Shown piece by piece: positions 9,837-26,261 of a stretch of DNA of 64,000 nucleotides (its first letter is position 1; the number at the start of each line of letters is the position of its first letter). Location of the stretch: contig JADCBP010000005.1 in the NCBI GenBank assembly GCA_020253445.1, forward strand, positions 682,001 through 746,000. Reading direction: 5' to 3'. Below the pieces are notes generated by a model, which saw only the letters and a list, made by a program, of their open reading frames with translations, did no database searches and was not told where the DNA came from. The DNA is from Methylobacterium sp. GTDB lineage: Bacteria; Pseudomonadota; Alphaproteobacteria; Rhizobiales; Beijerinckiaceae. The translations under genes and the position numbers were made by a program.

Positions 9837-11141
9837 ATGACAAAGCATGGTCAGACGAGCCGGCGCGAATTGCTGGCGGGTGGCGTGGCCTTGGCCGGCA
9901 TGGCTGCAGCGGGGCCGGCGATGGCGCAGGCTGCGGAAGTTTCGTTCTTCTATCCGGTGGCGGTGGGTGGTCCGATCACCAAGCTGATCGACAGCTATGC
10001 CGCGGATTTCGAGAAGGAAAACCCGAATATCAAGGTCCGCCCGATCTATGCGGGCACCTATCAGGAGACGATCGTCAAGGCGCTGACCGCCCACAAGAGC
10101 GGCACCCCGCCGGTCACGTCGGTCCTGCTCTCCACCGACATGTTCACGCTGATCGACGAGGATGCGATCGTTCCCTTCGACGAATTCATCTCCACCGATG
10201 CGGATCGCGAGTGGCTCAAGAGCTTCTTCCCGGCCTTCATGGAAAACAGCCAGACCGGCGGCAAGACCTGGGGTATCCCCTTCCAGCGCTCCACGGTGGT
10301 GCTCTACTGGAACAAGGAGATGTTCCGCGAGGCCGGGCTTGACCCGGAGAAGGCGCCGCAGAACTGGGCCGAGCAGGTCGAATTCGCGCAGAAGCTGACC
10401 AAGCGCGACGCATCCGGCGCGGTCACGCAATGGGGTATGCAGATCCCGTCCTCGGGCTTCCCCTACTGGCTGTTCCAGGGGCTTTCGACGCAGGCTGGCG
10501 CCATCCTTGCCAATTCCGCGGGCAACCGCACCGATTTCACCAATCCGGCCGTGCTCGAGGCGCTGCAATACTGGATCGACCTCGCGCAGAAGCACAGGGT
10601 CCACCCGACCGGAATCGTGGAATGGGGCACCACGCCGCGTGACTTTTTCGAGCGCAAGGTCGCGATGATGTGGACCACGACCGGCAACCTCACCAATGTG
10701 CGAAGCAATGCCCGCTTCCCGTTCGGCGTGGCCATGCTGCCCGCAGGCAAGCGCCGGGGCAGCCCGACGGGCGGCGGCAATTTCTACATTTCCAAAAAGG
10801 CTGCCCGCGCGCAGCAGGAGGCGGCCTTCCGCTTCATCCGGTGGATCACCACGCCGGAGCGTGCGGCGCAATGGGGCATCGACACCGGCTATGTCGCAGT
10901 GTCGCCTGCCGCCTATGAGACCCCGGCGATGAAGGCCTACGCGGCCGATTTCCCGGCCGCACTCGTGGCGCGCGATCAGCTCCCCCATGCTGTCGCGGAG
11001 TTCTCGACCCATGAGAACCAGCGCGTGACCAAGGCCTTCAACGACGCCCTGCAGGCCGCGATTCTCGGCACCAAGCCACCGGCACAAGCCCTTGCCGAGG
11101 CGCAGGCCGAGGCAGAGCGCATCCTGCGGCCCTACCGCTGA
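9837..11141 (+). CDS. ugpB: ABC transporter substrate-binding protein, UgpB-like
   Basis: Periplasmic extracellular solute-binding protein (family 1) of 434 residues, delivering the substrate to the permeases that follow. The N-terminus carries a twin-arginine-type leader, SRRELLAGGVALAG..., ending near AMA-QA, so export may be by Tat. Family features are 'IDSYAADFEKENPNIKVRPIYAG', 'WGIPFQRSTVVLYWNKEMF' and 'FERKVAMMWTTTGNL', which resemble the glycerol-3-phosphate-binding UgpB group. It starts at an ATG behind GGGGAGG and ends 16 bp before the first permease. Position and order support an Ugp-like role, but a related polyol phosphate or sugar could be the ligand. Confidence 0.88.
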   Translation: MTKHGQTSRRELLAGGVALAGMAAAGPAMAQAAEVSFFYPVAVGGPITKLIDSYAADFEKENPNIKVRPIYAGTYQETIVKALTAHKSGTPPVTSVLLSTDMFTLIDEDAIVPFDEFISTDADREWLKSFFPAFMENSQTGGKTWGIPFQRSTVVLYWNKEMFREAGLDPEKAPQNWAEQVEFAQKLTKRDASGAVTQWGMQIPSSGFPYWLFQGLSTQAGAILANSAGNRTDFTNPAVLEALQYWIDLAQKHRVHPTGIVEWGTTPRDFFERKVAMMWTTTGNLTNVRSNARFPFGVAMLPAGKRRGSPTGGGNFYISKKAARAQQEAAFRFIRWITTPERAAQWGIDTGYVAVSPAAYETPAMKAYAADFPAALVARDQLPHAVAEFSTHENQRVTKAFNDALQAAILGTKPPAQALAEAQAEAERILRPYR

Positions 11142-11157
11142 TCATCAGGTTCGCCGG

Positions 11158-12036
11158 ATGACCGCATATCAGCGCGCGACCGTGCATGGCTGGCTGCTTC
11201 TGCTGCCGGCCATGAGCTGTCTCGCGTTGTTCACCCATTGGCCGGCAGTGGCGTCGATCATCGACAGTTTCTACTCGACGCCGCGTCCCCGTCGGCCGTC
11301 CCGGTTCATCGGGCTCGAGAATTACGAGGCGATGATCGCTGATCCGATCTTCTGGCGGGCGCTCGTCAACAATTTCTGGTTCGCGGTCGGCACCATTCCG
11401 CTTTCGATCGGGCTCGCCATCCTGATGGCGATCTGGGTGAATGACCGGATCAAGGGCCAGGCCTGGGTGCGGATGGCCTATTTCACGCCCACCATCCTGC
11501 CGATGATCGCGGTTGCGAATATCTGGCTGTTCTTCTTCACGCCCCAATACGGGCTGATCGAGCAGGTCGTGCAGTTCTTTGGCGGCTCTGCCACGAACTG
11601 GCTCGGCTCCGGCGATACCGCTCTCTTCGCTGTCATCGTGGTGGCGGTCTGGAAGGAGGCGGGCTTCTTCATGATCTTCTACCTTGCAGCCTTGCAGGGG
11701 ATTTCCCCAAGCCTCGGGGAGGCGGCCGCGATCGAGGGGGCCTCGCGCTGGTATTACTTCCGGCGCGTGCTCTTTCCGCTCCTCATGCCGACGACGCTTT
11801 TCGTGCTTATCAATGCCATGATCAACGCCTTTCGCATGGTTGACCATATCGTCGTCATGACGAGGGGTGGCCCGGACAATGCGACCATGCTTCTGCTTTT
11901 CTACATCTACCAGGTCGGCTTCAGCTTCTGGGATACGGGCTATGCCGCGACGCTGACCTGCGTGCTGCTGGCGATCCTCGCGATCATCGCCTTTGTTCAA
12001 TATGGCTGGCTCGAGCGACGGATTCATTATCGATGA
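11158..12036 (+). CDS. ugpA: ABC transporter permease, UgpA/MalF type
   Basis: Inner-membrane subunit with six helices, 292 residues from the ATG at 11158 (MTAYQRATVHGWLLLLPAM). The open frame begins 22 codons upstream inside the end of the binding-protein gene, but the ATG at 11158 gives the typical N-terminus. The coupling EAA motif that contacts the ATPase is 'EAAAIEGASRWYYFRRVLFPLLMP'-like near residues 190-215 (key residues E-A-A, G, and the Pro following the helix). It overlaps the next gene by 4 bp (ATGA), indicating translational coupling. Confidence 0.92.
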   Translation: MTAYQRATVHGWLLLLPAMSCLALFTHWPAVASIIDSFYSTPRPRRPSRFIGLENYEAMIADPIFWRALVNNFWFAVGTIPLSIGLAILMAIWVNDRIKGQAWVRMAYFTPTILPMIAVANIWLFFFTPQYGLIEQVVQFFGGSATNWLGSGDTALFAVIVVAVWKEAGFFMIFYLAALQGISPSLGEAAAIEGASRWYYFRRVLFPLLMPTTLFVLINAMINAFRMVDHIVVMTRGGPDNATMLLLFYIYQVGFSFWDTGYAATLTCVLLAILAIIAFVQYGWLERRIHYR

Positions 12037-12896
12037 GCGCAGCCCCCAAACCCGGAGCGGTGCCCGCGAGGCGCGACCCCTATGCGCCGCGTGGGCGCGC
12101 ACTGACGCTCGAATCCGCAGGCGCGATCCTGCTCGCGATCCTGTGGGTGTTGCCGCTTGCCTATGCGGTGTGGGCCGCGATCCACCCCTCGGAATACACC
12201 ACGCGCTTTGAACTTTTCGCTCCGCTGACCCTCGACAACTTCACCCGGGCCTGGGCGGCAGCACCCTTCGCACGCTATTTCGTGAACACCTTCCTTCTGG
12301 TGACCTTCATCCTCGCCTTCCAGCTCGTCCTCGGCACGCTCGCGGCCTATGCTTTGGCGCGGCAGGATTTCTGGGGGCGGGATGTCGCTTTCGCGCTGAT
12401 CCTCGCGCAGCTCATGATCATGCCCGACGCGCTGATCGTCGAGAATTACCGCACCATGACGCGGCTGGGGCTGGTCGATACCATTCCCGCCATCGCGCTG
12501 CCCTATATCGCGTCGGCCTTTGGCATCTTCCTCCTGCGCCAGACCTTCAAGACCGTGCCCAAGGAACTGGATGATGCCGCGCGCGTGGAGGGTGCCAGCC
12601 CGCTTCAGGTGCTGATGAAGGTCTATGTGCCGCTCGCCCGCCCCACCTACATCGCCTATGGCCTTGTCTCGGTCAGCTACCACTGGAACAATTTCCTCTG
12701 GCCGCTCATCATCACGAACTCTGTGGAGTCTCGGCCCCTCACGGTCGGGCTGCAGATTTTCTCGTCGCCCGATCAGGGGGTCGACTGGGCTGTGATCTGC
12801 GCGGCGACGCTCATGACCTCCGCCCCGTTGCTGATCGCCTTCCTCCTCTTCCAGCGCCAGTTCGTGCAGAGCTTCATGCGCGCCGGCATTCGCTGA
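12033..12896 (+). CDS. ugpE: ABC transporter permease, UgpE/MalG type
   Basis: Second inner-membrane subunit of the importer, 287 residues with six helices. The EAA-type motif is 'ELDDAARVEGASPLQVL', followed by 'VYVPLARPTYIAY'. The first ~25 residues are a basic cytoplasmic tail (PARRDPYAPRGRAL), somewhat longer than usual. It begins inside the stop codon of ugpA (ATGA) and is followed after 23 bp by the phosphodiesterase gene, so all five genes probably form one message. Confidence 0.92.
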   Translation: MSAAPKPGAVPARRDPYAPRGRALTLESAGAILLAILWVLPLAYAVWAAIHPSEYTTRFELFAPLTLDNFTRAWAAAPFARYFVNTFLLVTFILAFQLVLGTLAAYALARQDFWGRDVAFALILAQLMIMPDALIVENYRTMTRLGLVDTIPAIALPYIASAFGIFLLRQTFKTVPKELDDAARVEGASPLQVLMKVYVPLARPTYIAYGLVSVSYHWNNFLWPLIITNSVESRPLTVGLQIFSSPDQGVDWAVICAATLMTSAPLLIAFLLFQRQFVQSFMRAGIR

Positions 12897-12919
12897 ACCA
12901 TCCTTATCGGGGTCCGCCG

Positions 12920-13756
12920 ATGAACCTGATCACCTGGAACGTGCAATGGTGCCTCGGCGCGGATGGCGTGCTCGATCCGGCGCGCATCGTGGACCATGCA
13001 CGCGCCATGGCCGATTTCGACGTGCTTTGCCTTCAGGAAGTGGCGGATAACTTCCCCGAGCTGAACGAAACCCCGAGGGGCGACCAGTTCCGCAAGTTCG
13101 CCGATTTGCTTCCGGGCTTCCAGGCCATCGAGGGCGTGGCGCTGGAGACGCGCGACGCGGAAGGACGGCCCAAGCGCTTCGGCAACATGATTCTCACGCG
13201 CTTGCCGGTGATCCAGGTTTTGCGTCACACGCTGCCCTGGGGCGCGCGCGAGAACCGCAACATGCCGCGCGGATTGCTGGAAGTCATCGTCGATGGCCCG
13301 TTCGGACCGTTGCGGGTGATGACCACCCATCTCGAGTATTCGCACCCCGATCTGCGCCGCCCGCAGATCGAGGCCATCCGCTCGATCCATGAACAGGCGG
13401 CCGCCCGCGCCGCCGCACCGCGAGAGGACGGCCCGCACACCTATCGTCGCACCGCCCAGCCGGCCTCCGCGATCCTCTGCGGCGATTTCAACATGCTGCC
13501 GGACGACCCCATGAAGCATGCCCTTGAGGCGACTTTCGCAAGCTCCGCGCCGGCCTTCGTCGATGGCTGGACTCACCTCAACGGATCAACTCCGCATCCG
13601 ATGTCAGCTTGCGTGCAGCAGCCCAGCTACGCTTCGCCCCATTGCTGCGACTATGTCTTTGTGACGGACGACATGCTGCCGCGGCTCGCCATGGTCAGTT
13701 ATGATGCCGAAACCCGGGCCTCCGACCACCAGCCTGTGCTCGCCCGCTTCGCCTGA
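12920..13756 (+). CDS. Endonuclease/exonuclease/phosphatase (EEP) family hydrolase
   Basis: A 278-residue metal-dependent phosphoesterase of the fold shared by ExoIII, DNase I and sphingomyelinases. Active-site motifs occur in order: TWNVQW (Asn, metal), LQEV (Glu, metal), 'TTHLEY' (His), GDFN (Asp/Asn) and the terminal SDHQPV (Asp-His pair). There is no signal peptide, so it acts in the cytoplasm. It is the last gene of the Ugp-like ABC operon, 23 bp after ugpE. That context suggests it hydrolyses a phosphodiester brought in by the transporter, such as a glycerophosphodiester, rather than acting on DNA. This is inference; the family is functionally very broad. Confidence 0.87.
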   Translation: MNLITWNVQWCLGADGVLDPARIVDHARAMADFDVLCLQEVADNFPELNETPRGDQFRKFADLLPGFQAIEGVALETRDAEGRPKRFGNMILTRLPVIQVLRHTLPWGARENRNMPRGLLEVIVDGPFGPLRVMTTHLEYSHPDLRRPQIEAIRSIHEQAAARAAAPREDGPHTYRRTAQPASAILCGDFNMLPDDPMKHALEATFASSAPAFVDGWTHLNGSTPHPMSACVQQPSYASPHCCDYVFVTDDMLPRLAMVSYDAETRASDHQPVLARFA

Positions 13757-14961: not shown

Positions 14962-16068
14962 TCACGCCGCGAGGAACAGGGCGCGGGAATGGTCGAGGTC
15001 TACCGCAATCGGCGCGCCTGTTGGCAGTGGCGCATTGCCGGCCTGATGCGGCACATCGACAAGCACCTCATTCGCGCCGATCGCCACGCCATAGCGCAAG
15101 GATGCGCCGAGGAACTCGACATGGGTGATGCGGCCATCAAGGCGCGTCATGCCCGGTGCCTTCGGCGCATCATGCGGGGCGATGCGCGCATTCTGCGGCC
15201 GGAAGACGAGTTTTGCGCCCGGCTGCACATTCTCCTTCGCCGGGAAGGGCAGCCGGCCGCCGCCAGTAATCGCGAATTCCGCACCAGCCGTTTCGGCGGT
15301 GCCATCGAGGATGTTCGCCGTGCCGAGGAAGTTCGCGACGAAGAGGTTCGCCGGCCGATCATAAAGCGCCATCGGCGTGCCGACCTGCTGCACCACACCG
15401 TCGTTCATCACGGCGATGCGGTCGCAGATGGTGTTCGCCTCTTCCTGATCATGCGTCACGAAGATCGTGGTGATGCCCAGTTCCTGCTGCAGATCGCGCA
15501 ATTCGCGGCGCACCTGCACGCGCATCTTCGCATCAAGGTTCGAGAGCGGCTCATCGAGCAGCAGAACCTTCGGCCGCACCGCGATGGTGCGGGCAAGCGC
15601 CACGCGCTGCTGCTGGCCGCCGGAGAGTTGCGAGGGCTTGCGATCCTTGAGGTGCTTCAGGTTCACGAGATCGAGCGCCTGATCGACGCGGGCGGCGATC
15701 TTGACCTTCGGGAGTTTCCGCTCCTCGAGACCGAAGGCAACGTTCTTCGCAACACTCATATGCGGCCAGAGCGCGTAGGACTGGAAGACCATGCCCACAT
15801 CGCGCTTCCACGGCGGGAGGCTCGAAATATCCTGTCCGCCCACCATCACACGCCCGGTTTGCGCGATGTTGAAGCCGGCGATGAGGCGCAGAAGCGTCGT
15901 CTTCCCGCAACCCGAGGGGCCGAGGAAGGCGAAGAACTCGCCCGGCTCGATCTTGAGGTTCACGTCCTTCAGCACGTGGGTCGCGCCATAGGAAAGGTTG
16001 ACGCCGGCAACGTCGATCCCCGCAGCATTGCGGCGGATTTCCGCGCCGAGATCCGAGGTGATGCTCAT
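14962..16068 (-). CDS. ABC transporter ATP-binding protein, FbpC/PotA type
   Basis: Cytoplasmic ATPase of 368 residues for the importer whose permease and binding protein lie just upstream. Motifs: Walker A GPSGCGKTT near residue 50, Q-loop 'VFQSYALWPHMSV', signature LSGGQQQR, Walker B 'LLLDEPLSNLD' and switch 'VTHDQEE'. A TOBE domain follows ('KLVFRPQNARIAPHDAP'). The start is the ATG at 16068 (MSITSDLG) behind GGGAG; the frame stays open for another ~185 codons antisense-like through the permease gene and is not coding there. It belongs to the family serving Fe3+, thiamine, putrescine or aminoethylphosphonate importers, so the substrate is undetermined. It is the last gene of a sigma-54-type operon. 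Confidence 0.9.
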   Translation of the reverse strand: MSITSDLGAEIRRNAAGIDVAGVNLSYGATHVLKDVNLKIEPGEFFAFLGPSGCGKTTLLRLIAGFNIAQTGRVMVGGQDISSLPPWKRDVGMVFQSYALWPHMSVAKNVAFGLEERKLPKVKIAARVDQALDLVNLKHLKDRKPSQLSGGQQQRVALARTIAVRPKVLLLDEPLSNLDAKMRVQVRRELRDLQQELGITTIFVTHDQEEANTICDRIAVMNDGVVQQVGTPMALYDRPANLFVANFLGTANILDGTAETAGAEFAITGGGRLPFPAKENVQPGAKLVFRPQNARIAPHDAPKAPGMTRLDGRITHVEFLGASLRYGVAIGANEVLVDVPHQAGNAPLPTGAPIAVDLDHSRALFLAA

Positions 16069-16094
16069 CAGAATTGCTCCCGAATTGAAAAGAA

Positions 16095-17834
16095 TCAGCT
16101 CCCCGCCCTGGTGGAGCGGTCGCGCTCCGCAAGCAACTGGGACAGGTAGGTGGAGATGCCGACGATCAGCACGGCGATGATGCCCAGGGCCGCGCCCGCG
16201 CCACGCCCGGCGGGTGATTGCATGAAGACGTAGAGGCCATAGGCGAGGGGGGCGTCGGAGGTGTTCTGCACCAGCATCATCGTCGCGGAGAGTTCCACGG
16301 ACGCCGTGGCGAAGCTCGTGACGAAGCCCGCGAGAATGCCGCCGGTCATCAAAGGCACCATGATCTTGCGAATGGTCGAAGCCTTGTTCGCACCGAGATT
16401 TTCGGCGGCCTCCTCCAGCGAGACGCTGATCTGCTGCATCGCCGCCATGCAGGCCCGCAGCGCATAGGGCAGGCGGCGCACGGCGAGCGCGATCACGATG
16501 ATGATCCAGAGGCTCGTGACCGATTGGCCCGAGGGCAGGCTCACCCCATAATAGGCGCGAAGATAGCCGATGCCGAGCACCACGCCGGGCACGGCCAATG
16601 CCGCGCTCGCGAGGTAATCCAGCCATTGCCGGCCCGGCACCTTGGTGCGCAGCACGATGTAGGAGATCGCCGTGCCGATGATGATGCCGATGAAACCGGC
16701 GATCGTGGCATAAAGCAGCGTGTTCCAGATGTATTGGCCGCTTTCCAGCACCACGCGGGTGTAATGGGCGGTGGTATAGCCGTCGGGGAGCACGCTGAAG
16801 GACCAGACGGTCGAGAAGGAGAGCAGCAGCAGGCCGAGATGGGGGGCCAGCACCAGCGCGAGGATCAGCCCGATCGTGCCCCAGGCCATCACGAGATCGA
16901 GCCCGCCGATGGGCCGCTTCGCAAGGCCGCCACCGCCTCGCTGCACGGTCGCGTAATCGCGGTTGCGCATGGTCGAGGTCGCGATGAACAGCGAGAGCAC
17001 CGAGAAGACGATCAGCACGACCGAGATCACATAGCCCATCGGATCTTTGAGGCCGATCGAGGTGATGCGCAGATAGGCCTGCGGCGCGAGCATGTCCTTC
17101 ACGTTCAGCAGGAGCGGTGTCGCGAGGTCATCGAAGACCTTGATGAAGACCAGGCTCGCGCCCGCCACATAGCCGGGCATGGCGAGCGGAAACACGATGC
17201 GCCGGAAGAGCCGGCCGCCGGAGCAGCCCAGATTCTGGGCGGCTTCCTCCATCGAGCGGTCGATGTTGCGCAGCGAGGCCGTGAGATTGATGAGAATGAA
17301 CGGGAAATAGTGCACGCTCTGCACGAAGATCACGCCGTTCAGCCCCTCCATGAACGGGATGTTGATCCCGAACCAGTCACCCAGCAGCAGGTTCACCGAG
17401 CCGTTGCGGCCGAAGAACAACTGCATCGCGACGGCACCCGCAAAGGGCGGCATGATCAGCGGAATGACGCCAAGCGTCTGAATGATCGCCGCGCCACGGA
17501 ACTCGAAGCGTGTCGTGAAATAGGCGAGCGGCAAGGCGAAGATGGTTGCCCAGACCACGGACATCGCCGAGACATAGAGTGAATTGGCAAACGAGCGCAG
17601 GAACATCTCGTTACGCGCGAAATCCGCGAAATTCACCAGCGTGAAGGCACCGCTATTCGGGTCCTGGAAGGCAACGAGGATCACCATCGCCACAGGGATG
17701 AGCAGGAACAGGGCGAGGAAGGCGACAATCGCGCCGATCGTCAGCCATTGGCCGGGTGTGGCAACGGCCTGCCGCGCGGCGGGGGCAGCCTTTTCGCTGG
17801 AGAAACCGGTCGCGACCGTCATGGGCGGGTCCAT
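16095..17834 (-). CDS. ABC transporter permease, fused FbpB/ThiP type
   Basis: Inner-membrane permease of 579 residues, about twice the usual size because two homologous six-helix halves are fused, as in FbpB and ThiP. Both halves have the EAA coupling motif: 'SMEEAAQNLGCSGGRLFRRI' around residue 205 and 'SLEEAAENLGANKASTIRKI' around residue 470. The two motifs are clearly related to each other. The N-terminus is cytoplasmic and Ala-rich. Two nearby ATGs (17834 and 17822) are possible starts, and neither has a strong ribosome-binding site. It lies 26 bp before the ATPase gene and 127 bp after the binding-protein gene. Confidence 0.92.
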   Translation of the reverse strand: MDPPMTVATGFSSEKAAPAARQAVATPGQWLTIGAIVAFLALFLLIPVAMVILVAFQDPNSGAFTLVNFADFARNEMFLRSFANSLYVSAMSVVWATIFALPLAYFTTRFEFRGAAIIQTLGVIPLIMPPFAGAVAMQLFFGRNGSVNLLLGDWFGINIPFMEGLNGVIFVQSVHYFPFILINLTASLRNIDRSMEEAAQNLGCSGGRLFRRIVFPLAMPGYVAGASLVFIKVFDDLATPLLLNVKDMLAPQAYLRITSIGLKDPMGYVISVVLIVFSVLSLFIATSTMRNRDYATVQRGGGGLAKRPIGGLDLVMAWGTIGLILALVLAPHLGLLLLSFSTVWSFSVLPDGYTTAHYTRVVLESGQYIWNTLLYATIAGFIGIIIGTAISYIVLRTKVPGRQWLDYLASAALAVPGVVLGIGYLRAYYGVSLPSGQSVTSLWIIIVIALAVRRLPYALRACMAAMQQISVSLEEAAENLGANKASTIRKIMVPLMTGGILAGFVTSFATASVELSATMMLVQNTSDAPLAYGLYVFMQSPAGRGAGAALGIIAVLIVGISTYLSQLLAERDRSTRAGS

Positions 17835-17961
17835 TTTTCATCAGGCGCACGGCACCGGGCCTCGCGCGGGGGAGACTGAACCTGGACGAATGAGTTCGGG
17901 GTAAGTCCCGGCGGCAAGGAGAGCTTGCCGCCGGGGGCTCGTCCGGAGAGCCGCGGGAACC

Positions 17962-19299
17962 TCAGCGGGCGAGTTTCACGGCTTCCTCGGCCTTGGCTTT
18001 CGCCTTGGCATAGTTCTCCTTGGAGAAGGCAGCCCAGCGGCGCTCGAACTCGGCCTGGCGGGTCTTCGCATCGGCGCCGCCACGGAAGGCGCCGACAATC
18101 TCGGTGTCGCTGCTCGCCTGCGATTCCGTGATCGGCACGGCGCTGACAAGCTTGCGCGCCTCGTCCAGCGCGGCCCTGGCCTGCGGATTGGCTTTCTTCG
18201 CAAGCAGGCCCTCGGCCTCGTGCATCAGCTTCGTCACGGCTTTCAGGTCCGCGAGCTGGAAGGTGATCATCTGGTCGAAGAGCGTGTCGACCACCGCCGT
18301 GCGGCGCTCCGACTTGTCCACGTCGAAATGCAGCATCTTCTGGAAGTTCGCATCCTTGAAGGGGTTGGGGAAGCCCGGAGGCGCCTTCGCATAGGTCTCG
18401 GGGTTGACCGGCAGGCGGCGGATGGTGGGTTCGAGCAGCACTTCCTGCCCGGCGGGGGAGAGCAGGAACTCGATGAAGGCTTCCGCGCCCGCCCGGTTCG
18501 GCGCGCCGGCGATGATGCCGACATTCGCCGGGACCACGGTCGTGACGCTGGGATAGACGAATTTCACCGGAAAGCCCGCGCCCTGCGCCGAGAAGGCGAA
18601 GAAATCGATGACGATGCCGATGCCGACCTGGCCGGAATTCACCGCATCCGGCACGCCGAACGAACGTTCGGCAATAGTATTGAAGTTGCCGGCCATGGCC
18701 TTGATCGTGGCCCAGCCCTTCTCCCAGCCCTCACCCTGAAGGATCGTCTCCAGCGTGAGATGCGTCGTGCCCGAGCGGGCGGGCGAGGCGATGGACACAT
18801 GGTCATGGTAGACGGGCCTGGCGAGATCCGACCATTCCTTCGGCTCGGGGATGCGGTTCGCGCGCAGATAGCGCTCGTTCCACATGATGCCGTAGCCCGA
18901 GGCCGCGAAGCCGAAATAGAACCCATCCGGATCGTTGATCGGATAGGAGCCGACCTTCGCCGGAATGCCTTTCACCTTGAGGTCGTATTTCTGCAGCAGG
19001 TTCTTGCCCTTCAGCACCTCGAAGGCATCAGGAGCCGAGGCCCAGAACAGGTCGCTCTGCGGGTTGGAACGGGTCTCCTCGACGAATTTCACGCCCGCAT
19101 TGGTGTTGCGGTTCTGCACTTCGAGGGTGAGACCCGGATTGGCCTTCTCGAAGGCTTTCTTGATCGGGTCGGTCACGTCCTTCGAGAAAGAGGTGACGAC
19201 GGTCACCTTGCCCGACGGCGCCTGTGCGAAGGCAGGGCCTGCCCCTACCAGCACGACGCTGGCAGCAAGGGCATGGAGCCAGTGGCGACGGTTCAACAT
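17962..19299 (-). CDS. ABC transporter substrate-binding protein (transport component)
   Basis: Periplasmic binding protein of 445 residues. The signal peptide is MLNRRHWLHALAASVVLVGAG...AFA. The mature part has the FbpA/AfuA-like pattern 'VTVVTSFSKDVTDPIKKAFEKA', 'FWASAPDAFEVLKGKNLL', 'ASGYGIMWNERYL' and 'SPARSGTTHLTLETIL'. The C-terminal ~110 residues form a charged helical extension (KAKAKAEEAVKLAR) not found in short iron-binding proteins. The ATG at 19299 follows GGGAG. It is the first gene of the importer operon and has a -24/-12 promoter about 65 bp upstream. It is a paralogue of the PgtC-like protein at 22792-24174, sharing the FWASAPDAFEVL and SRSGTTHL-type motifs, which implies a common ligand class. 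Confidence 0.9.
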   Translation of the reverse strand: MLNRRHWLHALAASVVLVGAGPAFAQAPSGKVTVVTSFSKDVTDPIKKAFEKANPGLTLEVQNRNTNAGVKFVEETRSNPQSDLFWASAPDAFEVLKGKNLLQKYDLKVKGIPAKVGSYPINDPDGFYFGFAASGYGIMWNERYLRANRIPEPKEWSDLARPVYHDHVSIASPARSGTTHLTLETILQGEGWEKGWATIKAMAGNFNTIAERSFGVPDAVNSGQVGIGIVIDFFAFSAQGAGFPVKFVYPSVTTVVPANVGIIAGAPNRAGAEAFIEFLLSPAGQEVLLEPTIRRLPVNPETYAKAPPGFPNPFKDANFQKMLHFDVDKSERRTAVVDTLFDQMITFQLADLKAVTKLMHEAEGLLAKKANPQARAALDEARKLVSAVPITESQASSDTEIVGAFRGGADAKTRQAEFERRWAAFSKENYAKAKAKAEEAVKLAR

Positions 19300-19365
19300 G
19301 GGTGTTTCTCCCTTCCGTGGAATGGTCTTTTGCCGCCGGTTCCATGCCTGCGGACGTCGAGGGGC

Positions 19366-19381
19366 TGCACCCGCCATGCCA
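19366..19381 (-). promoter_or_regulatory. Sigma-54 (-24/-12) promoter of the ABC importer operon
   Basis: On the minus strand the sequence is TGGCATGGCGGGTGCA. It matches the RpoN consensus TGGCAYG-N4-TTGCW at all but one position (G for T at the start of the -12 block) and has the invariant GG-N10-GC spacing. Transcription would begin near 19355, leaving a leader of about 55 nt before the ATG at 19299. The adjacent gene upstream encodes a GAFTGA-containing sigma-54 activator, which strongly supports the call. Confidence 0.75.
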
Positions 19382-19443
19382 AGAGGGCGCGGCGGGAAAA
19401 GGCGCGGAAATGCAAGGACTTCTTGCGGTCGCGAAGGAAAATG

Positions 19444-19498
19444 CGCGTTACCGTTCTTACCCATGGGCCTGAATTCCGCGGGTCGCGCGGGTAACGCG
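19444..19498. promoter_or_regulatory. Inverted repeat, candidate activator binding site
   Basis: A perfect 9-bp inverted repeat, CGCGTTACC (19444-19452) and GGTAACGCG (19490-19498), lies 63 to 130 bp upstream of the -24/-12 promoter. This is where sigma-54 activators normally bind. A smaller palindrome, GCAAG-N5-CTTGC, is at 19412-19426, closer to the promoter. Assignment to the PgtA-like regulator is inference from position. Confidence 0.5.
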
Positions 19499-19508
19499 AG
19501 GCGCCTTC

Positions 19509-20849
19509 TCAGGTCTCCTGCGCCTCCTCCGGGCGACCCAGGCCATGGGCGCGCAGCTTGAGGTAGAGCGTCTTGCGCGTGATCTCGAGTCGGCGTGCGA
19601 TTTCCTCATAGGTCCCGCCTTCGGCGAGCGCGGCGATGAGTTCGCGCTTCTCATGCGCGGCCATGCGCGCTTCGAGGCTTGCGCCATGCTCGCGGGCGCT
19701 GGCCTGCGCCACCGGGCCGGGGCCGAGGGGCGGGAAGCCAAGCGCCGCCCGCTCGGCCGCATTGCGGAGTTCGCGGATATTGCCCGGCCAATCATGCGCG
19801 AGAAGGCTCCCGAGATCGCCTTCGGGCGGGAGCGGACGGCGCAGGCGGGCTGCCGCTTCTGCCACGAAATGCCGGAAGAGCAGCAGCACATCCTCGCCGC
19901 GCAGGCGCAAGGGCGGCGATTCAATCGGCAGGACAGCAAGCCGATAGACCAGATCTTCGCGGAACTGCCCGATTCTCGCGAGGGCCGCGAGATCGGCCTT
20001 GGTTGCGGCGATCACCCGGAGATCGACGGGGATTTCCTTTCCCCCGCCGAGGCGTTCCAGCCGCCTTTCCTGAAGCACGCGCAGCAGCCTTGTCTGCGCA
20101 TCCATGGGCATGCTCTCGATCTCGTCGAGGAACAGCGTGCCCTGATGTGCCTGCTCGATTCGGCCGATCCGTCGGTCCTTCGCTCCCGTGAAGGCGCCGG
20201 GCTCGTGGCCGAAAAGCTCGGATTCAATGAGGGTCGCGGGAAGCGCCGCGCAATTGATCGCCACGAAAGGCCCGCGCGCCCGGGGACCGAGATCATGCAG
20301 CGCGCGCGCAACCAGTTCCTTGCCCGTGCCCGTCTCGCCATGGATCAGCACCGTGCTGTCCACCTCCGCCAGCGCCAGCACGATCTCGCGCATCCGCCTG
20401 ATAGCCGCGGATTGCCCGAGGATGCGCTGCTCGATGGCCCGGCTCTGGATGTTCCCGGCCATGCGGCGATGATCGAGCACAAGGCCGCGCAAGCTGCTCG
20501 CGCGGCGCAGCAGTTCCAGCACATAGGCCGGGTCGGCAGGCTTCTCGACGAAATCATGCGCACCCTGCCGCATGGCAGAGACCGCCATCGGCACATCGGC
20601 ATGGCCTGAAATGAGGATGACCGGGATATCCGGGTCGATGGCTTTCACCTCCGAAAGCACGGCGAAACCGTCCCGCGCGGGCATGCGCACATCGGTGACG
20701 ACCACGATATCCGCCTCGCGCTTGAGGTGTTCGCGCGCGGCCATCAGCGAGGCGCAGGGCTCCACCGCATAACCGCCGAGGCGGAAAGTTTCGGCGAGCG
20801 CCTCCAGCACTTCCTCGTCATCGTCGATCAGCACAATCGTGCTCGGCAT
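19509..20849 (-). CDS. pgtA: NtrC-family sigma-54 response regulator, PgtA/DctD-like
   Basis: DNA-binding response regulator of 446 residues, activated by phosphorylation and working with RNA polymerase sigma-54. The receiver domain (1-120) has the acidic pocket LIDDDEE and phospho-acceptor Asp53 (VTDVRMP). The AAA+ domain has Walker A GETGTGKE at 171-178, the sigma-54 contact loop GAFTGA at 218-223 and Walker B 'TLFLDEIESM'. A Fis-type helix-turn-helix closes the protein ('YEEIARRLEITRKTLYLKL'). The ATG at 20849 is chosen because GGAG precedes it by 6 nt; a TTG 12 nt upstream is also in frame. It lies 26 bp after the sensor kinase gene. The likely target is the -24/-12 promoter at 19366-19381 immediately downstream. 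Confidence 0.93.
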   Translation of the reverse strand: MPSTIVLIDDDEEVLEALAETFRLGGYAVEPCASLMAAREHLKREADIVVVTDVRMPARDGFAVLSEVKAIDPDIPVILISGHADVPMAVSAMRQGAHDFVEKPADPAYVLELLRRASSLRGLVLDHRRMAGNIQSRAIEQRILGQSAAIRRMREIVLALAEVDSTVLIHGETGTGKELVARALHDLGPRARGPFVAINCAALPATLIESELFGHEPGAFTGAKDRRIGRIEQAHQGTLFLDEIESMPMDAQTRLLRVLQERRLERLGGGKEIPVDLRVIAATKADLAALARIGQFREDLVYRLAVLPIESPPLRLRGEDVLLLFRHFVAEAAARLRRPLPPEGDLGSLLAHDWPGNIRELRNAAERAALGFPPLGPGPVAQASAREHGASLEARMAAHEKRELIAALAEGGTYEEIARRLEITRKTLYLKLRAHGLGRPEEAQET

Positions 20850-20875
20850 TCTCGTCTCCAAGTCAGGCTTTCCGG

Positions 20876-22795
20876 TCAGTTTTCAGGCACTGCGCGCAGT
20901 TCCAGCGCGAAATGCGCACCGCGTTCGGCCGGCAGCAGGCGAAGCGCGCCGCCGAAATCGCGAATGATGCTGAAGGAGATCGTGAGCCCCAGACCCACGC
21001 CCTCGCCGGGCGGTTTCGAGGTCACGAAGGGGTCGAAAATCGTGGCGCGCACCGCTTCCGGCACGCCGGGACCGTTATCCAGCACCTCGATCCGCACGAG
21101 GTTGTTGCGTGGCTCGGCGCGGATGGTGATCACCGGCTCCGGCGTGCCCGCCAGCGCATCCAGCGCATTGGCGAGGAGGTTCACGAAAACCTGTTCGAGC
21201 CGGATATCCTCGGCCTCGACCATGAGGCCTTCGGGAATGTCGCGTTCGAGGCGCGTATCGCTCTCCCGCAGGCGGCTTTGAAGGATAAGCACCGCGCCTT
21301 CCACCACCTCGTTGAGGTGCACGGGGCGCAAGGCGAGGTCCGGCCTGCGCGCGAAACGCCGGAGATGTCCAACGACATGCGCGGCACGCGCGGTCAGGTC
21401 CTGCACCTTCTTCAGCGCGTGCCTCACGCCGTCCGTATCGCCGCGCTCCTGCAGCAGGCTTGCATTGTAGGCATGCGAGCGGATGGCGTTGAGCGGCTGG
21501 TTGAGTTCATGCGCGATACCCGCCGAGAGGTGCCCCAACGCCGCGAGCTTCGCGGATTGAACAAGGTCACTCTGCGCGCGGCGGAATCCCTCCATGGCGC
21601 GGGCCATGTCACTGAGTTCATCGCGGCCGGAAATCTCGATGGGCGGCGGAATGCGCCCGTCACCCAGCATGCGCGCGGCATCCGCGAGGTGGCGGATGCG
21701 CCGGATGAGGTTCGAGCGCACATAGAAAATCCCCACGCCCAGCGAGGCCACCACGGCGGCAATGCCCACAAGCAGCAGCAGGTTGCGGCCGAGTGCGATC
21801 GCCGCTTCCGCGCTGCGCCGCGTCTCCCCCGCCTGAAGCGAGGCGCGCGAGACCATCCCGGCAATCTCGCCATCGAAGGCGCCGACCAAGGTGCGGTTTT
21901 CTGCCAGCAGCAGCGCGAGCTTCCGCTGCTGCGCGAGTTCCAGCCGCCGCAGCGCGGGGAGACCATTCTCGGCGGTCGAAAGTTCCACGAGACGCTGCAC
22001 GATCTGCCGAAGCGTGAGGGTATCCTGCGCTTCCTCCAGTGGCGGCACCTGCTGGCCGATGAGATCGACCGCTTCCGCCAGGAAATGACTGTCGAGGGTC
22101 AGCTGTTCGAGGCTGTCCACCGCCGCGATGCGGCTGATGAGGCCGATCGCGAGGTTGGCATGCGAGGAGAGCTGCAAAATCGCCTCGGCCTTGCGGATCT
22201 GACGGCGGATTTCCGCCACCTGCCGGGCATCAACGCGCGCCCTCGTTTCGAGTTCCTCGAGCTGCCCCTGCACGATGATGCGCGCATCATCGACGAGCGG
22301 CTCGGCTTCCTCCACGAAATCCGAGTGCAGGCTGCGGACCTCGCGCAGCAGCGTCTCGTTCTGCCGCCGCATGGTGAGGGCGGCGAGGGTTTCGGCGCGG
22401 ATGGCATCGAGGTTTTCCTCAAGATCGTCGATCAGCCGGCCCATTCCCTCCGGTGCCGTGGCGCGCTCGCGCGAGACGAGCTGGCGCAGGGCGCCGGCGC
22501 GTTCACGCAGGCGGTTGCCGATCTCCTCCACCTCCGCGCTGCTCTCGGCGCGGGAAAGCAGCGGCGCACCGGCGGTGATCGCACCGCCCAATTGTGCGAG
22601 TTGCCCCGCCGAGATGACCACCGGCAACTGTCCTTCGCCGATCGTGCGGATCGAGCCGCTGACGCGCTCGAAGGCGAGCCACGAAATCACCCCGGCGAGC
22701 ACCGCGAACAGCGCCGAGAGCCCGAAGGCAAGGCCCAGCCTGCCGCCGATGCCGAGGCGCGCGCGCGGAGTTTCCGGCAACAGGCTCTCACTCAT
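20876..22795 (-). CDS. pgtB: Sensor histidine kinase, PgtB-like
   Basis: Membrane sensor kinase of 639 residues. Two transmembrane helices (about 20-45 and 333-357) bracket a periplasmic domain of nearly 290 mostly helical residues. A HAMP linker follows, then a DHp domain with the phospho-acceptor motif GIAHELNQPLNAI (His near 430) and an HATPase domain with N box 'NLLANALDAL', G1 DNGPGVP and G2 GVGLGL. The large helical periplasmic region and the neighbourhood resemble Salmonella PgtB, which senses through the periplasmic protein PgtC. Its start codon overlaps the stop of the pgtC-like gene (ATGA), so the two proteins are translationally coupled. Confidence 0.92.
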   Translation of the reverse strand: MSESLLPETPRARLGIGGRLGLAFGLSALFAVLAGVISWLAFERVSGSIRTIGEGQLPVVISAGQLAQLGGAITAGAPLLSRAESSAEVEEIGNRLRERAGALRQLVSRERATAPEGMGRLIDDLEENLDAIRAETLAALTMRRQNETLLREVRSLHSDFVEEAEPLVDDARIIVQGQLEELETRARVDARQVAEIRRQIRKAEAILQLSSHANLAIGLISRIAAVDSLEQLTLDSHFLAEAVDLIGQQVPPLEEAQDTLTLRQIVQRLVELSTAENGLPALRRLELAQQRKLALLLAENRTLVGAFDGEIAGMVSRASLQAGETRRSAEAAIALGRNLLLLVGIAAVVASLGVGIFYVRSNLIRRIRHLADAARMLGDGRIPPPIEISGRDELSDMARAMEGFRRAQSDLVQSAKLAALGHLSAGIAHELNQPLNAIRSHAYNASLLQERGDTDGVRHALKKVQDLTARAAHVVGHLRRFARRPDLALRPVHLNEVVEGAVLILQSRLRESDTRLERDIPEGLMVEAEDIRLEQVFVNLLANALDALAGTPEPVITIRAEPRNNLVRIEVLDNGPGVPEAVRATIFDPFVTSKPPGEGVGLGLTISFSIIRDFGGALRLLPAERGAHFALELRAVPEN

Positions 22796-24174
22796 GGCCG
22801 TGCGCTCCCCGCCTCCGGGTTGAGCCGCCGCGCGAGCGCTTCCAGGCGCGCTTCTGCCGTCGCGAGGCTCGCTTCCGCCCCCTGCCGGATGCGTTCGACC
22901 AGGGCAGCCTGAACCGGTGGCGGCGGCACGCCACGTGGCACGCGCTTCAGTTCGGTCGAGGCTGGATCATTTTCCAATGCAGCGAGAGCTTCCGGCAAGC
23001 TCGCGGCGAGATCACCCACAGCCTGCCATTCTCGGGCCAGCGCGGCATCGGCATGCGCCTTCTCGCGGATCTCCGCATGGAGGCGCCAGAATTTCTGCAG
23101 GCGCACGATCCGCTCGGTGATGAGTTCGTCGAACAGGATGTTCACGAGTTCGTAGCGCCGGCCTGACTTTGCGGCATCGAACACGAAGCCGGACTGACCG
23201 GCTTCCGCCAGCGCGAAAAGGTCCTCGCGATCGGGCGCCGCCATGCCCGATGCGACCGGGTGCCGGTTGATGCGCGGCTCGGTGAGCAGCCTCTGCCCCG
23301 CCTCGGAGAGCACGAAAGCCGCGAAACGCCGCGCGCCCTCGGGGTTTCGCGCGGTGGAGAGCACGGCGATGCTCGCGGGCAGGAAGACATTCTCCGCCGG
23401 ATAGGCGAAACCGAGATCATCCGTGCCCGAACGGCCCAGAAAATCAATCGACAGTCCAACAGCGAAACGCCCCTGCGCCACGCCGCTCGGCACGGAGAAG
23501 GAGCGGGCCGTCACCGTCGCGAGATTGCCGGCGAGCCGCTGCCAGATCTCCCAGCCTTTCCGCCAGCCATAAAGCTGCAGCACCGTCTCGACCATGAGAT
23601 GCGTCGTGCCGGAGCGCGAGGGCGCGGACATGGCGATGAGCCCGCGATAACGCGGATCGGTGAGGTCCGCGATGGCCCTGGGCGGCGCGAGGCCCGCGCG
23701 CGTGAGGCTCGGCTGATGCCACATCATGCCGTAGCCCGAGACTGAGAAGCCCCGGAACATGCCATCCGGCGCATCGACGGGAAACCCGCCGATCCGGGGT
23801 GAGACCGGGCGCAGGCCGGCTGGAATCGGCAGCAACTTGCCGGCCTCGCGCAGAACCTCGAAAGCATCGGGTGCCGAGGCCCAGAACACATCTGCCTCGA
23901 AGCGCCCGCCCGCCACCATGGCAATGGCCGCAGTGGTCTTCCGGTTCATGATGCGAAGGCGAAAATCCGATTCCCTCGCCTCGAAGGCCCGGCGGAACGG
24001 CTCGTAGAGCGAAGCGGGGAAGGATGTGATCACCACCACCTCCTCGCGCGCGAACCCCGGCCTTGTGAGCGCCAGCAGCAGGCTCAAGAGCAGCAGGGGG
24101 CGGAGAAGGAGGAGCGCTCTCATGCGCGCGATTGAGGCGGATTTGCCGGAGCCATGCAAGCTTTGCCGGCTCAT
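22792..24174 (-). CDS. pgtC: PgtC-like periplasmic binding protein (sensory component)
   Basis: Periplasmic protein of about 460 residues (443 from an in-frame ATG at 24123). It has a hydrophobic signal segment rich in Leu ending near TRPGFA, and a binding-protein fold: 'VVVITSFPASLYEPFRRAFEAR', 'FWASAPDAFEVLREAGKLL', 'SVSGYGMMWHQPSL', 'APSRSGTTHLMVETVL'. These segments align with the transport binding protein at 17962-19299, so the two are paralogues. Being encoded directly before the kinase and overlapping it by 4 bp (ATGA), it most likely presents a ligand to the kinase, as proposed for PgtC, rather than feeding a permease. It also overlaps the end of pbpC (ATGA at 24171-24174), which is why I keep the upstream ATG. 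Confidence 0.86.
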   Translation of the reverse strand: MSRQSLHGSGKSASIARMRALLLLRPLLLLSLLLALTRPGFAREEVVVITSFPASLYEPFRRAFEARESDFRLRIMNRKTTAAIAMVAGGRFEADVFWASAPDAFEVLREAGKLLPIPAGLRPVSPRIGGFPVDAPDGMFRGFSVSGYGMMWHQPSLTRAGLAPPRAIADLTDPRYRGLIAMSAPSRSGTTHLMVETVLQLYGWRKGWEIWQRLAGNLATVTARSFSVPSGVAQGRFAVGLSIDFLGRSGTDDLGFAYPAENVFLPASIAVLSTARNPEGARRFAAFVLSEAGQRLLTEPRINRHPVASGMAAPDREDLFALAEAGQSGFVFDAAKSGRRYELVNILFDELITERIVRLQKFWRLHAEIREKAHADAALAREWQAVGDLAASLPEALAALENDPASTELKRVPRGVPPPPVQAALVERIRQGAEASLATAEARLEALARRLNPEAGSARP

Positions 24175-26261
24175 TCCACGCGGATGCTCACACGTCGCGT
24201 TTCACCGAGGCGGTCGATCACCGCGATCTCGGCGAAACCCCGCCCGGGCGCGGGCAGGGAAATGGAGCGGCGCATCTGGCTTTCGGAAGCCGGAACACCA
24301 TTCAGCAGCAGGGTGAAGGGCGGCGAACCGCCCTGCAACTTCACCATCAGGGCTGCTTCCGTGCCGTCCCGCAGGCTGTCGCTGTCGAGTCTCGCGCCAT
24401 CCGGCGGGTAGGCGATCTGAAGGGCCGGTTTCGTCGCGGCGGAAATGGTCTTGGCGACATCCTGCCGGAGATGCCGCAGGGGCGGTGGCAGGGCCGAGGT
24501 GCGCGCCACGATCGCCTCTGGCGGGCGGGGTGGAATGCCGGGCTGCAATCCCGCGCGCTGGAACGCTTCGAAGAGGATCGGCGCCGCACTGCGCCGGCCG
24601 ACTAGGCCCGGGACCGGCGCGTTATCCGCCCGGCCCACCCACACGCCGATGGCGTGGCGCCTGTCGAATCCAACCGCGAAAGCATCGCGATAGCCGAAGG
24701 AGGTGCCGGTCTTGAAGGCGATGCGCCCCGGCGGGCCATTGTCGGGCGGTGGCGCACCGAGCAGAATATCCGCGACATACCAGCTCGCGACCGGGCTCGC
24801 GAGCGTGACGATGGCGGGCGTATCCTCCGGCTGCTCGCGGGCCAGGACGAGTTCGCCCCCGCGCCCGATGGCGGCGGTCAGCACCGTGAGGTCCTCCAGC
24901 GAAATTCCCAATCCGCCCAGAGCGATGGCGAGACCGGGGCTGGTCTCGTCCGGCATGAGGAGGCGCACGCCGCTCTGGCGGATTCGGCTCAGGAATTTCT
25001 GTGGCCCCAGGGCATTCAGCAGTTCCACCGCCGGCAGGTTGAGGGATTGCTGAAGCGCTGAGCGCGCGGTCACCAGCCCCTGGAATCCGGTTTCGAAATT
25101 CTCCGGCGCATAAAGGCCGAAGCGCAAAGCGCGATCCTCCAGCAGGGTTTCGGGGTGGGCGATCCCCTCGTCGAAGGCAAACGCATAGACGAAGGGCTTC
25201 AGCGCCGAACCGGGCGAGCGCACCGCGCGCGTCAGATCGATGCCGCCGGCGCGCGCCGCGTCGAAATAATCCGCGCCACCCACGGCTGCGCGGAGTTCTC
25301 CACTCGCGAGATCGATGGCGACAAGGGCCACCGAGACATTGGGGCCGAAGGGCTCGGCCCGCTCGCGGGCGAGTTGTTCGAGGCTCACCTGCAGCGCGCG
25401 ATCATAGGTCGTGACGATGCGGCGCTGATCCGGGTTCGACGCCGCCAGCGCCTCCGCCCGATGCGCGGCATGGCGCGGAAAGGCACGCCGCAGGGTGGGG
25501 ACGGGTTCATCCGTGCCGCGCGCCAGATCCGCTTCGGGCAGGATCCTGGCCTCGCGGATGCGGTTCAGCACGCGCTCGCGCGCGGCAGTCGCGGCCTCCG
25601 GGAAGCGATCCGGGCGGCGCGTTTCCGGTGCCTGTGGCAGCGCCACGAGCAAGGCAGCTTCCGCCATCGAAAGGCGCTTCGGCTCGCGGCCGAACCAGCC
25701 GAGGGTTGCGGCGCGAATGCCCTCCACATTGCCGCCAAAGGGCGCAAGGGCCAGATAAAGCTCGAGGATTTCGCGCTTGGAGAAGCGCCGCTCCAGCTCG
25801 ATCGCGCGCAAGGCCTGCCGGGCCTTCGCGCCCAGGGATCGCGCCTCACGCGGCTCCAGCAGGCGCGCGACCTGCATCGTCAGTGTCGAACCCCCGGAGA
25901 CGACGCGACCATTGCGGGCCATCTGCAAGCCCGCACGGAGAAGTGCCAAAGGGTCCACACCGGCATGCCGGTAGAAGCGCCGGTCCTCATAGGCCACGAG
26001 CATCTCGATATAGCGCGGATCGACCTCGTCGAGGCTCACGGGCATTCGCCAGCGGCCATCGGCCATCATGAAGGGGCGCAGGAGCTGCCCCTCGCGATCG
26101 AGCACGACGGTGGAGCGCTCTGCGGCGCGCGTCATGTCGAGTTTCGGCAATTGCCGGATCGCGAGTTCCAGCGCCCCCCAGCCGATCAGCGGCAGGGCAA
26201 GGATTGTTGCGGCGGCAAGCCGCCAGTTTTTCCTTGCCCGGAGCCGATCAAGCAAGGCCAT
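24171..26261 (-). CDS. pbpC: Penicillin-binding protein 1C (bifunctional glycosyltransferase/transpeptidase)
   Basis: Inner-membrane class A PBP of 696 residues. After one N-terminal helix comes the GT51 glycosyltransferase domain ('VAYEDRRFYRHAGVDPLAL', 'GGSTLTMQVARLLEP'). The transpeptidase domain has SPGSALKPF (SxxK, near residue 350), the SxN motif in 'QSLNLPAVE', and KTGTSFGYRDAF (near 515). The C-terminus is the BiPBP_C domain typical of PBP1C. It directly follows the alpha-2-macroglobulin gene with no spacer, the classical yfaS-pbpC pairing. In that pairing PBP1C is thought to repair peptidoglycan where the macroglobulin has trapped an attacking protease. It overlaps the next gene by 4 bp. 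Confidence 0.95.
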   Translation of the reverse strand: MALLDRLRARKNWRLAAATILALPLIGWGALELAIRQLPKLDMTRAAERSTVVLDREGQLLRPFMMADGRWRMPVSLDEVDPRYIEMLVAYEDRRFYRHAGVDPLALLRAGLQMARNGRVVSGGSTLTMQVARLLEPREARSLGAKARQALRAIELERRFSKREILELYLALAPFGGNVEGIRAATLGWFGREPKRLSMAEAALLVALPQAPETRRPDRFPEAATAARERVLNRIREARILPEADLARGTDEPVPTLRRAFPRHAAHRAEALAASNPDQRRIVTTYDRALQVSLEQLARERAEPFGPNVSVALVAIDLASGELRAAVGGADYFDAARAGGIDLTRAVRSPGSALKPFVYAFAFDEGIAHPETLLEDRALRFGLYAPENFETGFQGLVTARSALQQSLNLPAVELLNALGPQKFLSRIRQSGVRLLMPDETSPGLAIALGGLGISLEDLTVLTAAIGRGGELVLAREQPEDTPAIVTLASPVASWYVADILLGAPPPDNGPPGRIAFKTGTSFGYRDAFAVGFDRRHAIGVWVGRADNAPVPGLVGRRSAAPILFEAFQRAGLQPGIPPRPPEAIVARTSALPPPLRHLRQDVAKTISAATKPALQIAYPPDGARLDSDSLRDGTEAALMVKLQGGSPPFTLLLNGVPASESQMRRSISLPAPGRGFAEIAVIDRLGETRRVSIRVE

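Follow-up and report, generated by a model that had tools for sequence, protein, structure and literature searches.

A sensor of the PgtCBA type encoded beside a complete ATP-binding cassette (ABC) importer raises the question of whether the sensor controls the importer, and which ligand the two binding proteins of such a locus recognize. This arrangement is found in a stretch of 64,000 nucleotides (C14:682001-746000, hereafter the window) from a 3.28 Mb Methylobacterium sp. genome. Six genes of its minus strand are transcribed in the order PgtC-like binding protein, histidine kinase, response regulator, second binding protein, fused double permease, and ATPase (table 1). Our analysis indicates that a PgtCBA homologue driving an ABC importer through sigma-54 is most likely, and we consider the whole circuit, in which a phospho-acid receptor, a kinase, and a sigma-54 activator switch on the importer, to be very probable. 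An earlier note had described a PgtC-like binding protein, a kinase, a GAFTGA activator, and a complete importer on this strand; all six genes were found in place, and the Pfam domains agree, with SBP_bac in both binding proteins and a receiver and a sigma-54 domain in the regulator, besides those listed in table 1.

The successive intergenic gaps, calculated from the gene coordinates, are −4, 14, 209, 127, and 23 bp. The largest separates the regulator from the importer, the place expected for a promoter. The regulator has the features of a sigma-54 activator (bacterial enhancer-binding protein), namely GAFTGA, Walker A and B motifs, a receiver, and a helix-turn-helix (HTH), and the genome contains one copy of rpoN, scoring above its cut-off. 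A sequence of the −24/−12 type, TTGGCATGGCGGGTGCA, begins 83 bp upstream of the importer start codon, and two operator-like sites 33 bp apart are located upstream of this promoter. The operator pattern is found at three sites across the genome. The third (G000:C14:891624-891639, L153), near a TolC-like gene, is probably due to chance, as a reversed control pattern also gives three sites.

Across loci, the promoter accompanies the activator. Following a permease scan of 84,980 species genomes, we used the best 80 of at least 509 confirmed matches, a selection favoring close relatives. A promoter was called at 12 or more of 14 consensus positions with GG and GC in place. Among 89 loci considered, 79 were scored, and 10 were skipped because the importer receptor was missing or truncated or the upstream stretch was short. 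The promoter is present in 31 of the 40 loci with a regulator directly upstream and in 1 of the 38 in which no regulator was found (Fisher 1.4e-12). This single locus, from Devosia, has the sensor receptor and kinase downstream; L104 and L125, which have about 250–300 bases 5′ of the importer so that a regulator may lie off the contig, were counted as having no regulator, and both are devoid of the promoter. In L055, a nearby regulator on the opposite strand carries GAFPGA, and the promoter is absent. Nine loci have a regulator without the promoter: in eight, the regulator is without GAFTGA (GAFIGA in L065; motif absent in L113, L124, L131, L135, L139, L140, and L142), and the ninth is L127. 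When the GAFTNA of L052 and L078 is counted as an intact activator, the promoter is found in 31 of the 32 loci with an adjacent GAFT(G/N)A activator versus none of the 45 others; these 77 loci, used also for tree contrasts, exclude L054, absent from the tree, and L119, whose regulator is off the contig. On the importer tree, nine of ten independent contrasts agree with this association, none is against, and one is tied (p 0.0039). Within the loci with a regulator, there are three independent GAFTGA contrasts, all agreeing in most pairings but too few for significance. A chance origin of the promoter is rejected by its association with the activator across the scored loci and by the tree contrasts. 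In a second set of 8 plasmid loci out of 36 matching records, some of them from genera already in the first set, the promoter is present in all six loci with a GAFTGA regulator and in neither of the two without GAFTGA. In Aminobacter, the sensor cluster is located about 11 kb from the importer, yet the promoter and the operators are found at the importer. The sensory receptor of this locus (L163 5932-7263) is annotated, unlike its relatives, as a shortened gene with a small hypothetical one after it. The proposal of the earlier note that the ABC importer is the unit regulated by the sensor is thus supported, at the level of sequence, by a sigma-54 type promoter and by operators, the presence of which follows that of the activator.

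The operators come in two forms, A and B, distinguished by consensus scoring, which replaced an expectation-maximization motif search that had returned the coding sequence of the regulator HTH. Form A, TGTTACCnnnnTKACCCA (at least 12 of 14 positions), occurs in 29 of the 32 GAFT(G/N)A loci, in none of the 8 without GAFTGA, and in none of the 37 importer-only loci (shuffles, 0.1 of 32), the consensus having been derived from the same loci on which it was then counted. In 22 of these 32 loci, two copies (at least 11 of 14) are 31–34 bp apart. The palindromic form B, TGGGTCAnnnnTGACCCA, was found in seven of the eight loci without GAFTGA, two of the 32 with it, and none of the 37 importer-only loci. 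Form A was chosen without the plasmid loci or the enteric stretches, and the Providencia stretch contributed to the reading of form B. Form B is also present between pgtP and pgtC in Escherichia coli (12/14) and Providencia (14/14), and between a major facilitator superfamily (MFS) gene and a pgtC-like gene in Vibrio fluvialis (12/14); this site could serve either divergent gene. The motif RK-x-LYL is conserved in the HTH of 29 of the 30 regulators aligned, L055 having RKSLYD. PgtA of E. coli (L145 11166-12413), Providencia (L149 11166-12413), and V. fluvialis (L146 11556-12821) is without GAFTGA and without the Walker lysine, and no −24/−12 site of 11 or more faces pgtP in these three stretches. 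The sequences of these copies, which do not include that of Salmonella, speak against a functional sigma-54 activator. Both the Providencia and the Vibrio copy are nevertheless annotated as sigma-54 dependent, despite having neither GAFTGA nor the Walker lysine. A CFT073 stretch fetched to find pgt genes contained none. GAFTGA and the −24/−12 promoter are both missing from the enteric pgtP system, Paracoccus, Alcaligenaceae, and a relative of the window's genus that has GAFIGA.

The earlier note had considered that a neighborhood not conserved in relatives would refute its reading. The set occurs in many soil bacteria, and the six-gene order is kept over genera and classes. Copies of the block were found in Bosea, Microvirga, Chelatococcus, Ancylobacter, Aureimonas, Pseudochrobactrum, Mesorhizobium, Sinorhizobium, and Azospirillum, and more divergent ones in Paracoccus and Alcaligenaceae. 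Two Devosia loci have their sensor genes 3′ of the importer. The closest named relatives in the permease scan are metagenome-assembled genomes of Beijerinckiaceae/Hyphomicrobiales. The block is whole in four relatives (G007, G003, G014, and G034) and split over contigs in two (G018 and G050), and the stretches fetched from six others (G001, G013, G015, G027, G028, and G058) carry the importer without the sensor. Its distribution is patchy, as 8 of the 61 genomes searched, that of the window included, have a sensory-receptor match of at least 47% identity. Some copies show peculiarities. In Azospirillum brasilense, genes for an aspartate decarboxylase and an AspT antiporter are inserted between the sensor cluster and the importer (L147 15068-18427). 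In a close relative, the match to the ATPase (L044 15448-16424, from the genome that also holds L067) is broken between residues 297 and 324, possibly by a deletion or an assembly fault. The match to the sensory receptor of relative G010 (L049 1404-2302) is interrupted by a stop, and the copy or the assembly may be broken.

Table 1. Genes and predicted regulatory sites of the sensor–importer block (window coordinates)
Feature	Position	Strand	Description
Sensory binding protein, PgtC-like	22792..24174	-	460 aa; periplasmic binding protein fold with C-terminal helical extension; 4 bp overlap with kinase gene
PgtB-like histidine kinase	20876..22795	-	HAMP, HisKA, HATPase
Response regulator, NtrC-type	19509..20861	-	Receiver with DVRMP, intact Walker A/B, GAFTGA, HTH with RKTLYL
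Operator-like site 1, CGTTACCCGCGCGACCCG	19479..19496	-	11/14 consensus positions
Operator-like site 2	19446..19463	+	13/14 consensus positions; orientation opposite to site 1
-24/-12 (sigma-54 type) promoter, TTGGCATGGCGGGTGCA	19366..19382	-	12/14 consensus positions, both dinucleotides in place
Importer binding protein	17962..19299	-	445 aa; paralogue of sensory binding protein
Fused double permease	16095..17834	-	Two BPD_transp stretches in one protein (Pfam)
ABC ATPase with TOBE domain	14962..16071	-	Pfam

Two gene starts were revised. The open reading frame of the ATPase, listed as 14962-16626, is overlong, and homology places its start at 16071. We placed the start of the importer binding protein at 19299 and not at the upstream ATG at 19464, since the promoter and one operator-like site lie between them. 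In the kinase, hydrophobic segments at about residues 20–38 and 339–357 border some 300 residues taken as periplasmic. In a search of the genome, this part matched the PgtB model (positions 4–397, E 5e-20); it matches the TorS model as well, and both matches are below cut-off. The partner of TorS, TorT, is a periplasmic binding protein too, and both matches fit a contact between receptor and kinase. A penicillin-binding protein 1C gene overlaps with its last 4 bp the sensory receptor gene (window 22792-26261); the pair is adjacent in relative G010 (L049) as well, but L044-L047 and L050 gave no match to such a gene. On the other side of the block, two ugp-like permease genes and an endonuclease/exonuclease/phosphatase-family gene adjoin the importer (window 11092-13756, plus strand), and matches to the same three genes are located 5′ of the importer in Afipia (L132), which suggests an organophosphate neighborhood.

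The paralogy of the two binding proteins, which the earlier note had deduced from the common FWASAPDAFEVL and the SGTTHL region, is confirmed by 37% identity in a whole-genome search (E 4e-70), the four other matches of that search being at 23–30% identity with E 1e-15 or weaker. The note had further proposed a duplication of the importer's receptor yielding one copy for transport and one for sensing. Duplication is retained, but the receptor tree indicates that it is ancient and rules out a local event. In this tree, the enteric PgtC proteins are of uncertain placement owing to long branches, and the three outgroup rows are not placed with one another. R-S-x-T, R-S-F/Y, and I-D are common to both receptors and three PgtC proteins.

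Neighboring genes and the homology to PgtC, whose ligand is 3-phosphoglycerate (PMC11077982), favor phosphorylated C2/C3 acids as ligands. In the window and 80 loci, we counted phosphatase genes located up to 3.5 kb downstream from the ATPase gene in the same orientation. Twelve of 42 importer-only rows, unscored for the promoter or with little downstream sequence, were dropped; none of the 12 had a match. A HAD and/or a histidine phosphatase, two unrelated folds, is encoded in 18 of 39 sensor-linked versus 1 of 30 importer-only loci (p 7e-5, uncorrected for relatedness and with queries taken from sensor-linked loci, which favors that group), as well as in seven of the eight plasmid loci. Both HAD phosphatases tested exceed the cut-off of TIGR01449 (phosphoglycolate phosphatase), and no named family reaches its cut-off for the histidine phosphatases. 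A pyruvate kinase gene follows the importer in Pseudochrobactrum, and another stands beside the pgt genes in V. fluvialis. Conversely, neither the window nor its own clade has such a phosphatase, which weighs against this assignment. By analogy with these relatives, a ligand of the phosphoglycerate, phosphoenolpyruvate, or phosphoglycolate type has, for the window, about an even chance of being correct.

A sugar phosphate or pyridoxal phosphate could be bound in place of a phosphorylated acid. The best structural matches of the receptors are AfuA, VcA0625, and P5PA, the closest solved structures bind glucose-6-phosphate, fructose-6-phosphate, and pyridoxal phosphate, a PNPOx-family gene follows the importer in Paracoccus denitrificans, and the best name for the histidine phosphatases, below cut-off, is alpha-ribazole phosphatase. 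The receptors also have the Ser-Gly-Thr phosphate loop of AfuABC-type proteins. However, all of them have Ile in the column of the ring-binding His of AfuA and P5PA, the sugar-binding His-Asp being Ile-Asp in 82/82 importer and 43/43 sensory receptors, and the sensor is homologous to PgtC, with its known phospho-acid ligand. We therefore regard such a ligand as rather unlikely. Alternatively, the two binding proteins might recognize different ligands, the sensor reporting one metabolite as a cue and the importer carrying another. Divergence is about 1.6 times faster among sensory than among importer receptors (41 loci), position 252 is V in 76/82 importers and E, P, or D in 38/43 sensors, and N65/N67 are mostly K/T in sensors. 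Against this, the phosphate-loop and I-D-F motifs are identical across the 82 importer and 43 sensory receptors, and a single column combines good conservation in each set (90% and 85%) with a residue that differs between the sets. The distance matrices of the two receptors are moreover correlated (Mantel r 0.93), although any linked genes would correlate. A division of ligands thus appears unlikely. PhnS2, PhnU2, and PhnT2 are the top named NCBIfam models for the three importer genes and would designate a 2-aminoethylphosphonate importer; this is quite improbable, as all three score below the curated cut-offs (111/393, 159/593, and 390/458 bits), and the tested downstream genes best match phosphoglycolate/histidine phosphatase families, with phosphonatase models far below cut-off. 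Finally, the annotation "iron ABC transporter permease" would imply an FbpA-type ferric-ion importer with an iron sensor, which we reject as highly improbable because the iron-binding Tyr-Tyr of an FbpA (7w3w) is replaced by Phe-Phe in 82/82 importer and Phe-Leu in 42/43 sensory receptors, and phosphate-ester binders top the structure comparison.

We compared the locus with known systems. Receptor, kinase, and NtrC-type regulator are in the C-B-A order of PgtCBA, but the scores for PgtB (226/1000 bits) and PgtA (274/650 bits) are below the NCBIfam equivalog cut-offs and thus designate a homologous relative and not an equivalog. The Salmonella/E. coli PgtCBA-PgtP system, examined in its E. coli plasmid copy, shares this order, homologous receptor and kinase, a related HTH, and the palindromic operator form. 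There the target is the MFS transporter PgtP, here an ABC importer, and E. coli PgtA, unlike the window regulator, has neither GAFTGA nor the Walker lysine, with no −24/−12 site of at least 11 positions ahead of pgtP. In the window, the importer stands after the sensor genes in place of pgtP, for which the rest of the genome was not searched. The fold matches of the receptors include 6lkg ("two-component system protein mediate signal transduction"), presumably HptA. In the Staphylococcus aureus HptA-HptSR system, a separate receptor likewise recognizes a phosphorylated sugar and passes the signal to a kinase, but the target is the antiporter UhpT (PMC8774646). The AfuABC and P5PAB importers (PMC4546632, PMC8427247) have the closest solved receptors and the same phosphate loop; they differ by their ring-binding His, by the C-terminal helical extension that the receptors here have beyond those structures, and by the three-component system that adjoins the importer here. 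In Pseudomonas aeruginosa GltB-GtrS-GltR, a binding protein also feeds a kinase controlling a transport operon, but the importer's own receptor does both jobs, performed here by two paralogues (PMC7927077). Among the titles and abstract openings listed, none dealt with a sensor of the PgtCBA type combined with an ABC importer. While each part is known, the new points are the wiring, the receptor pair, and the fact that GAFTGA and the sigma-54 promoter are absent together in several lineages.

From the genes and their homology, the promoter-like and operator-like sites, rpoN, the conservation of the block, and the co-variation of activator and promoter, we infer a receptor–kinase contact, an order of phosphotransfer, DNA binding, and a ligand class as follows. 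The PgtC-like receptor would bind a phosphorylated small acid and engage the periplasmic part of the kinase, which would phosphorylate the NtrC-type regulator. The phosphorylated regulator would bind the two operators (19446-19496) and activate sigma-54 RNA polymerase at the promoter, leading to production of the importer (14962-19299). The importer's own receptor, a paralogue from an old duplication, probably takes the same kind of ligand.

More generally, one regulator family may have switched repeatedly between sigma-54-dependent and -independent activation while keeping a related operator and, at importer loci, its target, the alphaproteobacterial form driving a dedicated C2/C3 phospho-acid ABC importer by means of a co-inherited receptor pair from an ancient duplication; we judge this scenario to be evenly poised between right and wrong. 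The arrangement described here predicts the regulation and the ligand class of a widespread family of importers, the permease of which carries an iron permease annotation. With its receptor pairs, its loci with and without the sensor, and its activators with and without GAFTGA, this family offers a natural comparison of how a single receptor fold is divided up for transport and for signaling.
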